From the NCBI GenBank assembly GCA_030620115.1, contig JAUXFG010000016.1, forward strand, positions 1 through 38,864: 38,864 nt of DNA, in the 5' to 3' direction. Source of the DNA: Candidatus Fermentibacterota bacterium. GTDB taxonomy: Bacteria; JAFGKV01. A program made the translations under genes and the position numbers. Shown piece after piece: positions 488 through 3,505 of the stretch. Position 1 is the first letter of the stretch. Every line of letters starts with the position of its first letter. Under the pieces are notes generated by a model. The model saw only the letters and a list, made by a program, of their open reading frames with translations, was not told where the DNA came from and did not search any database.

Positions 488-859
488 TCAGGCAACATGC
501 TTTGAGGCAAGCTCGCCAATCAACTTCGATGTTCTGATGTGTCGTTGCTTCGCCTCGGCCTCAAGCCGCTCATAAACAGACTCAGGAATTCGGCATTTCA
601 CCTGGCGTGTTGGTTCCTTCGCGGGGCGTCCCCTCTTGAGCCCAAGAATCTGGCGCACAATTCGATGAACCGCGTCCAGATGTTTCTTTCCGCCATCAAC
701 CGGAACTCTTGAGACGGAGTACCCGATCTTCCCAGCTTGGTCAGCAAAGAGCCTTACCGAAGCATCGATTCCCTTCGATTTCAACTCTCTGTTCACCATG
801 CTTTGAAAGCGCTGCAACTCCTTCGAGGAGGAGAGTTCGTAGAATTTCACTTTCGCCAT
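488..859 (-). CDS. Putative AT-hook/ribbon-helix-helix DNA-binding protein
   Basis: This 123-residue protein is the second gene of a two-gene operon. Residues 1-70 form a predicted alpha/beta domain that I do not recognise. Residues 75-82 (KRGRPAKE) look like an AT-hook or basic linker. Residues 85-123 begin with a beta-strand-like RQVKCRIPES followed by two helices, the pattern of the Arc/MetJ ribbon-helix-helix fold. It starts at ATG 859 with GGAG close upstream and lies 17 nt after the stop of the upstream gene. A perfect palindrome overlaps the operon promoter, so autoregulation by this protein is a natural inference. An antitoxin-like role is possible but not shown. Confidence 0.7.
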   Translation of the reverse strand: MAKVKFYELSSSKELQRFQSMVNRELKSKGIDASVRLFADQAGKIGYSVSRVPVDGGKKHLDAVHRIVRQILGLKRGRPAKEPTRQVKCRIPESVYERLEAEAKQRHIRTSKLIGELASKHVA

Positions 860-876
860 TTCTCCGCCCCTTTTCC

Positions 877-1233
877 CTATGAGCCGTCCGGAAGAAGGAG
901 GAACCCATCAGCCGACGAGTACGCGATCACAGCCATCCCTTCCTGGTCCAGCAGATCGCCGACCTCCGAGACGATTCCAGCGACTCGCTCCCGATGCTTG
1001 AGAAAAGCCTCTCTCGTTGTCATCGAAACGACGACCGTTTGACCTCTGTCTACGGCCAGCCCCGACCCATCGAGCATCTCCCAAGTACCTAGGCACGGCA
1101 TCGCAGTCGCCCCCCCGAACATCTCGCCGAAGGCCTTCAATAGAAGTTCGGTCGCCCTCTCAAGCTTCCTCTTGGACACCGCTTTGTTCGTGCGCGTCAG
1201 CGACGGGAATGGAACAGCCACCACGTACGACAT
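877..1233 (-). CDS. Conserved-looking hypothetical protein, first gene of the RHH operon
   Basis: This 118-residue soluble protein has no signal peptide or membrane segment and I do not recognise its family. The strand-helix pattern, with FGGAT near residue 40 followed by G-x-W, a variable loop and an Asp-Arg-Gly turn, then two helices and a last strand, suggests a small ferredoxin-like alpha/beta fold. ATG 1233 (MSYVV) is preferred because GGGAAG lies 8 nt upstream; a TTG at 1248 in frame is the alternative (123 residues). It is co-transcribed with the RHH gene 17 nt downstream. In toxin-antitoxin operons with the regulator second, the first gene is the effector, but nothing here proves toxicity. 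Confidence 0.7.
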   Translation of the reverse strand: MSYVVAVPFPSLTRTNKAVSKRKLERATELLLKAFGEMFGGATAMPCLGTWEMLDGSGLAVDRGQTVVVSMTTREAFLKHRERVAGIVSEVGDLLDQEGMAVIAYSSADGFLLLPDGS

Positions 1234-1261
1234 GCGAATTCTTCCCAAACCGGAGCTCCCT

Positions 1262-1312
1262 TTTTGGGTACTAAGTACCCAAAATTATAACACGCAACTG
1301 GCTTTGACGCAA
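1262..1312 (-). promoter_or_regulatory. Promoter with overlapping palindromic operator for the RHH operon
   Basis: Read on the minus strand: TTGCGT (1312-1307), a 17-nt spacer, TATAAT (1289-1284). Immediately downstream is a perfect inverted repeat, TTTTGGGTACT / AGTACCCAAAA, with a 1-nt centre (1284-1262). The expected transcription start falls inside the palindrome, so a bound dimer would block initiation. The site lies about 30 nt upstream of the first gene's ATG. This is a classical layout for an autorepressed operon. Confidence 0.75.
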
Positions 1313-2865: not shown

Positions 2866-3102
2866 ATGAGAAAAGTATCGGTTCTGGAGTTTCGAAAAGA
2901 TGCAAAGAAGATCTTGCGCTGGGCCAGTCAAGGTCAGAGGATGATCATGACATATCGCGGCAAACCGGTGTGTCGTATCGAACCCATTGATGATGAGACA
3001 CCGAGTGAGAATGATCCATTCTACAGATTGGATCAAATCGCTCAGACTGCAGGTCGAGGTCTGAACAACCAAGAGATCGATAGGATTCTGTATGAAACCT
3101 GA
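2866..3102 (+). CDS. Phd/YefM-type antitoxin
   Basis: This 78-residue protein begins MRKVSVLEFRKDAKKIL and continues with a YRGKPVCRIEPI block, the N-terminal DNA-binding and dimerisation pattern of the Phd/YefM antitoxin family. Residues from about 45 onward are acidic and likely disordered, which is the part that normally wraps and inhibits the toxin. GGGAGGTGATTT before the ATG gives a strong ribosome binding site. The gene overlaps the PIN-domain toxin gene by 11 nt, so the two are translationally coupled. By family analogy it should neutralise the toxin and repress the shared promoter upstream. Confidence 0.88.
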   Translation: MRKVSVLEFRKDAKKILRWASQGQRMIMTYRGKPVCRIEPIDDETPSENDPFYRLDQIAQTAGRGLNNQEIDRILYET

Positions 3103-3505
3103 CAAGTTTGTGGACACGAGTGGGTTTTATGCTCTGCTTGTCAAGCGAGATGACAGGCATCTGAAAGCAAAAGAGATTCTGAATCAGGCATCGCGGCGCA
3201 GAACTTGCTTTGTGACGACGGATTATGTGTTGGACGAGACTGCCACATTGCTCCGCGCGAGAGGGCTGAACCACATCGTACAAGCTTTGTTCAATACTAT
3301 CTTCGAATCGCGAGCATGCCGCGTTGAATGGATGGATCAAGATCGCTTTCTCGAGACAGTATCCTTTTTTGCAAAACATGCCGATCAATCATGGTCTTTC
3401 ACCGACTGTTTCAGTTTCGTTGTGATGAAGGAATTGAATCTCACGGAAGCGCTGACCAAAGATCACCATTTCAAAGAAGCCGGCTTCGCGTCACTGCTTG
3501 TCTAG
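3092..3505 (+). CDS. vapC: PIN-domain ribonuclease toxin, VapC family
   Basis: This 137-residue PIN-domain protein has the acidic metal-binding residues expected of an active RNase: Asp8 (FVDTSGFYAL), Glu49 (DYVLDET), Asp105 (SFTDCFSF) and Asp124 (TKDHHF). VapC toxins cleave tRNA or rRNA and stop translation when the antitoxin is degraded. The target of this one cannot be read from sequence. Length and motif spacing are normal, so it looks intact. Its ATG lies inside the end of the antitoxin gene. The stop falls at the left arm of a REP-like inverted-repeat element. The pairing with a Phd-type rather than AbrB-type antitoxin is common. Confidence 0.9.
   Translation: MKPDKFVDTSGFYALLVKRDDRHLKAKEILNQASRRRTCFVTTDYVLDETATLLRARGLNHIVQALFNTIFESRACRVEWMDQDRFLETVSFFAKHADQSWSFTDCFSFVVMKELNLTEALTKDHHFKEAGFASLLV

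Follow-up and report, generated by a model that had tools for sequence, protein, structure and literature searches.

Two small neighbouring genes, here called gene 1 and gene 2, are read in the same direction from one promoter in the window, the whole 38,864-nt stretch of DNA that was analysed, and this is the layout of a type II toxin-antitoxin pair (Table 1). The window is a complete contig (C104) of a draft genome, 4.1 Mb in size and 98% complete. An earlier note had described two compact genes 17 nt apart, and their coordinates (877-1233 and 488-859) were confirmed; the gap occupies 860-876 and a GGAG site precedes gene 2. A longer gene 1 beginning at a TTG at 1248 is possible, with the ATG at 1233 preferred because of the GGGAAG at 1241-1246. 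The pair is chromosomal, since the same contig bears a ribosomal protein/rpoB/rpoC region and SecY (rpoB/rpoC and most of the ribosomal proteins were assigned by inspecting translations by eye). The collection holds three genomes from the phylum of this bacterium (G000), and the other two have neither gene 1 nor gene 2.

Table 1 Features of the two-gene locus, in window coordinates
Feature	Position	Strand	Details
Gene 1	877..1233	-	118 aa; ATG 1233, stop 877
Gene 2	488..859	-	123 aa; ATG 859, stop 488
Shine-Dalgarno-like GGGAAG of gene 1	1241..1246	-	from sequence
-35-like hexamer TTGCGT, 3/6 consensus	1307..1312	-	from sequence; 17 nt from -10
Extended -10 TGTTATAAT	1284..1292	-	from sequence; perfect hexamer 1284-1289
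Perfect palindrome TTTTGGGTACT-A-AGTACCCAAAA	1262..1284	.	11/11 pairs, 1-nt centre; probable operator
RGRPAK motif of gene 2	617..634	-	residues 76-81; GRP common to both other loci
Ribbon-helix-helix region of gene 2	497..610	-	residues 84-121; weak profile matches

The same note spoke of one clear promoter, a description that suits the extended -10, with its perfect hexamer, but not the -35, which is so weak that a consensus promoter scan left the TTGCGT/TGTTATAAT promoter off its list. Its perfect 11-bp inverted repeat with a 1-nt centre was found as described. The repeat starts on the final base of the extended -10 and spans the expected transcription start, predicted at about 1276-1277. 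Dinucleotide shuffling of the 100 nt ahead of gene 1, repeated 5000 times, never produced such an 11-bp arm, and a census of perfect inverted repeats (arms of at least 9, loops of at most 6) returned only five in the whole window, this one included. No second perfect copy is present in the rest of the genome, which makes a local operator likelier than a regulon, and only three places in the genome come within two mismatches of the palindrome. As far as the sequence goes, a palindromic operator at the promoter is thus a further trait in common with type II toxin-antitoxin pairs.

Several other features are found on this side of the contig. A DUF2283 gene (1930-2130) lies between the module and an ordinary toxin-antitoxin pair at 2866-3505, in which a Phd/YefM-type antitoxin gene overlaps a PIN-domain (VapC-like) gene. 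At the very start of the contig (14-61) is a perfect 48-bp palindrome (24+24, no loop), which could be a product of the assembly or mark a hairpin end.

Family and predicted fold of gene 1

Assigning gene 1 to a family required remote homology. No model in the Pfam, NCBIfam and PADLOC profile searches recognises it, Pfam DUF3574 (PF12098) among them, and single-protein searches with gene 1 or gene 2 found no close relative in phages, plasmids, genome contigs, viral contigs or about 390 genomes. The first lead was a match to phrog_3543 (E 0.009), for which gene 1 is the top match across its own whole genome. This trail led to a diverged bacterial relative (L006), and a degenerate DNA motif encoding FGGxT-x5-GxW-x9-ExV recovered 86 proteins from phage contigs. 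Against a family HMM built from 56 non-redundant phage proteins, with the window protein left out, gene 1 scores 37.5 bits, compared with 6.9 for the best of 2000 shuffles. DUF3574 is matched by 44 of 58 family members and S-AdoMet_lyase by 13 of 58 (best 5e-4). Gene 1 retains the FGGxT, GxW and QE motifs of the DUF3574/phrog_3543 superfamily. Judged by the HMM score and the phrog_3543 match, it is a divergent member of that superfamily, and the earlier description of a protein of unknown family can be dropped. Two further matches were set aside as chance: an apparent paralogue (G000:C266, E 0.005) runs antisense within another long reading frame, and a plasmid match (H1, Methylocalor) falls inside a large protein. 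For the pair as a whole, no profile of known toxin or defence families (PADLOC, NCBIfam) matched at its curated cut-off, and an RNase toxin is unsupported by any family or fold result for gene 1.

The AlphaFold2 model of gene 1 (pLDDT 91.6, pTM 0.83) was made with the family alignment, so what it shows is, strictly, the family's fold; the HMM score ties the window protein to that family. The model has a PII-like fold with SAM-lyase topology: in a Foldseek search of the PDB the top match was the SAM lyase Svi3-3 (6zm9, E 5e-5, TM 0.64), followed by CutA1 proteins, with CutA/PII trimers as the next structural neighbours and the T3 SAMase lower in the list (7ock, E 3e-3). Svi3-3 is also the best solved-structure match of the family profile (E 0.07), with its catalytic Glu69 and its Gln104-Glu105 in register. 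By sequence alone, the T3 SAMase scores no better against the family HMM than its own shuffles; the evidence for the link to SAM lyases is therefore Pfam PF23780, the profile match to Svi3-3 and the fold. The gene 1 protein is probably trimeric and PII-like, with a predicted ligand pocket between subunits.

SAM lyases convert SAM to MTA and homoserine lactone. Their Gly56, Glu69 and Gln104 are strictly conserved and Tyr58 packs against the ligand; in Svi3-3, the E69Q mutation lowers activity 4500-fold (PMC7877911). Gene 1 retains G40-G41-x-T43, G49-x-W51 and Q97-E98. It thus has two residues of the strict set, Gly49 and Gln97, with Arg63, adjoined by Asp62, at the position of the catalytic Glu. 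This arginine makes SAM lysis by the window protein doubtful, and the protein is not filed here as a SAM lyase. In the phage members of the family, the Gln at the SAM-lyase position, which the search motif did not select, is present in 49 of 57; the Gly and Trp of G-x-W and the Glu are invariant, by selection, because these residues are part of the motif.

Comparison with known proteins places gene 1 near several of them. With the phage SAM lyases (T3 SAMase, Svi3-3; PF23780) it shares the predicted fold, the G-x-aromatic and the Gln at SAM-binding positions; it differs in the replacement of Glu69 by Arg63, in a structural alignment of about 9% identity and in its link to a ribbon-helix-helix (RHH) gene. 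CutA1 and the GlnB-like PII proteins share the predicted ferredoxin-like fold of the trimeric GlnB-like superfamily, but their fold match is weaker than that of the SAM lyase, there is no sequence match, and gene 1, again, is linked to an RHH gene. The SAM-AMP lyases of type III CRISPR and of phages (PMC12255297) belong to the same PII-like superfamily and have a conserved Glu/Gln pair, whereas the window protein has lost the Glu and no CRISPR or CorA gene was found beside the pair. Finally, DUF3574 (PF12098)/phrog_3543 is the family to which the phage homologues belong, with the FGGxT, GxW and Q motifs in common with gene 1; the bacterial DUF3574 proteins seen have signal-peptide-like starts and no RHH pairing, unlike window gene 1.

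Gene 2 and recurrence of the pair

The earlier note described gene 2 as an unrecognised N-terminal domain, a basic RGRPAK hook and a C-terminal RHH. The motif lies where it was placed, and the C-terminus is weakly supported as an RHH by matches to Pfam CopG_antitoxin (E 0.025) and NCBIfam BrnA (E 0.0096), both below curated cut-offs, and by a comparison with a small Arc/CopG/NikR HMM in which 4 of 2000 shuffles scored as well. The label of AT-hook was too strong, because only the GRP core, and not RGRP, is shared by the three gene 2 proteins described below: the motif reads KRGRPAK in the window and GGRP only in the other two. The N-terminal domain is alpha/beta and ferredoxin-like in a single-sequence, low-confidence model (pLDDT 68), with no convincing fold match (best E 0.03). 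Gene 2 is the probable autorepressor of its own operon.

Searching 386 genomes with the family alignment yielded members in 11; the alignment included the window's own row, making the window's score there circular. At two places, L101 (genome G152) and L105 (genome G075), a relative of gene 1 is followed, after 4 and 13 nt respectively, by a small gene on the same strand. The downstream proteins carry a GGRP motif and a C-terminus that was assigned as RHH-like by inspection, the test against the small Arc/CopG/NikR HMM having failed for both. Both genes of L101 are homologous to those of L105, and window gene 1 is homologous to the gene 1 of each (0 of 2000 shuffles in all cases). In a tree of 67 proteins, built without the use of gene neighbours, the three gene 1 proteins group as a single clade (97/71; recovered in 98% of bootstrap trees), in which the window row is a long branch. 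In the case of gene 2, the window protein shows a marginal likeness to that of L105 (4 of 2000 shuffles as good) and no detectable likeness to that of L101 (367 of 2000). The phylum of G152 holds two genomes in the collection, and G075 falls in neither this phylum nor that of the window genome, so three phyla are involved. L101 and L105 lie on draft-genome contigs that are short (11.3 and 3.1 kb), and the paired loci number only three among about 390 distinct sampled genomes.

The earlier note made its proposal depend on co-conservation of the two genes in other genomes, and here it stood: gene 1 relatives adjoin an RHH-like gene in two independent, unrelated genomes, with the clade (97/71) behind the first gene and window gene 2 marginal in sequence. 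The same pairing in two other lineages makes this look like a real, undescribed module of a toxin-antitoxin-like or sensor-repressor kind. Beyond these loci, a scan with the paired alignment gave no further pairs, and a scan of viral contigs for an FRGAT-type pair motif gave chance matches only. The phage neighbours of the family include no consistent RHH gene, with one at a distance in L025, and the DUF3574 genes of Bacillota plasmids show no RHH pairing. The L101 pair itself comes directly downstream of an integrase gene of phage type, with an AAA/DUF4143 ATPase gene close by (L131 770-1750 and 3618-4901), surroundings as in a mobile island.

Both of the other pairs have a candidate operator of their own. 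In L101 it is a perfect 8+8 palindrome, CTTTCTATATAGAAAG, placed 15 nt ahead of the start codon (P ~0.004 from shuffles), and in L105 CTTTCGGTGCAGAAAG lies between TTGACT and TATATT hexamers spaced by 17 nt. Both sites, upstream of the pair, read CTTTC-N6-GAAAG, a pattern chosen after both were in view. It occurs nowhere else in the 132 loci compared, all seven listed loci being copies of these two places. Taking the L101 site as fixed, we estimate a chance of the order of 1e-4 that an exact copy would turn up in the 100 nt before L105. The shared site is independent evidence that the second gene of L101 and L105 is a DNA-binding autoregulator. The window contains no exact copy, and its own palindrome has another sequence, in keeping with its divergent gene 2.

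Candidate functions of the module

There is good support for an autoregulated two-gene module at this locus, and the earlier idea of an autorepressed toxin-antitoxin or stress module can be carried forward as an autoregulated module that recurs (L101, L105). What the module does is a matter for more tentative statements. Our preferred, still tentative, reading is an autorepressed effector/repressor module operating as a type II toxin-antitoxin pair does. Its observed base is the two-gene layout, the promoter palindrome, the fold class of gene 1, the recurrence and the site shared by L101 and L105; repression by gene 2, a complex of the two proteins, a ligand and possible toxicity are what it would add. 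The RHH protein would bind the palindrome over the start site and shut off its own operon. In RHH antitoxins, the part that does not bind DNA holds the toxin, and the N-terminal domain of gene 2 would probably hold the gene 1 product in the same way. Gene 1 would be a small PII-like protein with a ligand site of the SAM-lyase type which, when free, could use up or sequester SAM, or a ligand resembling SAM or a nucleotide, and so slow the cell. Type II systems with an RHH antitoxin, such as BrnTA, have the same effector-first, RHH-second order, short spacing and promoter palindrome; the effector is a RelE/BrnT-type RNase there as against a PII-like protein here.

Alternatively, gene 1 may be a non-enzymatic PII/CutA-like sensor of SAM, an adenine nucleotide or a metal, whose ligand state governs DNA binding by gene 2; the pair would then be the counterpart of NikR (RHH plus ligand domain) divided over two proteins. 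In structural likeness, the PII and CutA folds come directly behind the SAM lyase, the window copy has lost the catalytic Glu and kept the ligand-contacting Gly, aromatic and Gln, and gene 2 has an alpha/beta N-terminal domain of its own. This is rather unlikely in our estimate; against it, the genome has only one operator copy, with no sign of a regulon beyond the pair, and L101 and L105 retain the Glu that an enzyme would need. Between the two, the lost Glu and the CutA/PII resemblance favour the sensor, and the toxin appears slightly favoured by the gene order, the single operator, the neighbouring Phd/YefM-PIN pair and the high toxicity reported for expressed SAM lyases (PMC7877911).

Less probable again is a domesticated phage gene, that is, a former SAM-lyase-like or SAM-AMP-lyase-like counter-defence protein placed under a local repressor, acting on restriction or CRISPR signalling and not on the cell. 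SAM lyase is a countermeasure to restriction, and SAM-AMP lyases take part in type III CRISPR defence and are anti-CRISPR candidates (PMC7877911, PMC12255297), roles that would suit such an origin; so would the spread of the family in phage contigs (the 86 proteins) and in a viral structure library, as well as the integrase adjoining L101. However, the paired clade stands apart from phage sequences in the tree, no phage genes lie near the window pair, and the persistence of the pairing in three lineages points to a function of its own. Coincidence, in which an orphan DUF3574-like gene happens to lie beside an unrelated CopG-type regulator and L101 and L105 resemble the window by chance, might be argued from the marginal likeness of gene 2 and from the fact that most family members found do not adjoin an RHH gene. 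We regard it as very unlikely: order, strand and short spacing (4, 13 and 17 nt) are alike in three lineages, the gene 1 proteins cluster in a tree built without adjacency, and there are inverted repeats at all three promoters, two of them identical in half-site and spacing.

These results supply a small protein of formerly unknown family with a fold, a hypothesis about its active site and a partner in regulation, and they link the uncharacterised DUF3574/phrog_3543 family, common in phages, with the SAM lyases. Should gene 1 act on SAM, the system would be toxin-antitoxin-like and aimed at the cell's methyl donor; we know of no described type II system that targets SAM. If it does not, the module would couple a PII-like sensor straight to an RHH repressor. 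Both components, an RHH autoregulator and a PII-like fold, belong to known kinds, and we did not find the combination described: in the open-access literature, nothing joined DUF3574, or a PII-like protein, with ribbon-helix-helix. A broader proposal, on balance doubtful, is that a PII-fold effector derived from SAM lyase, draining or sensing SAM or a SAM-like messenger, forms with an RHH repressor a new class of module across several poorly sampled phyla. Were this true, the whole of DUF3574 would constitute a superfamily of proteins with SAM or nucleotide ligands.

The wider family offers some observations of its own. The IMG/VR loci L012-L098 form a widespread phage family (86 proteins found by the one motif, mostly with DUF3574 matches) that shows FGGxT-GxW-E-Q(E) and retains the residues by which SAM lyase binds SAM; its members are candidate lyases of SAM or SAM-AMP, or candidate ligand-binding proteins. 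The bacterial DUF3574 proteins of L103, L107 and L108, whose starts are signal-peptide-like, likewise retain the G-x-aromatic, Glu and Gln positions, and this points to DUF3574 and the SAM lyases as a single superfamily. In L106, an unpaired member of the superfamily adjoins a PIN-domain gene (189-524 and 851-1444).
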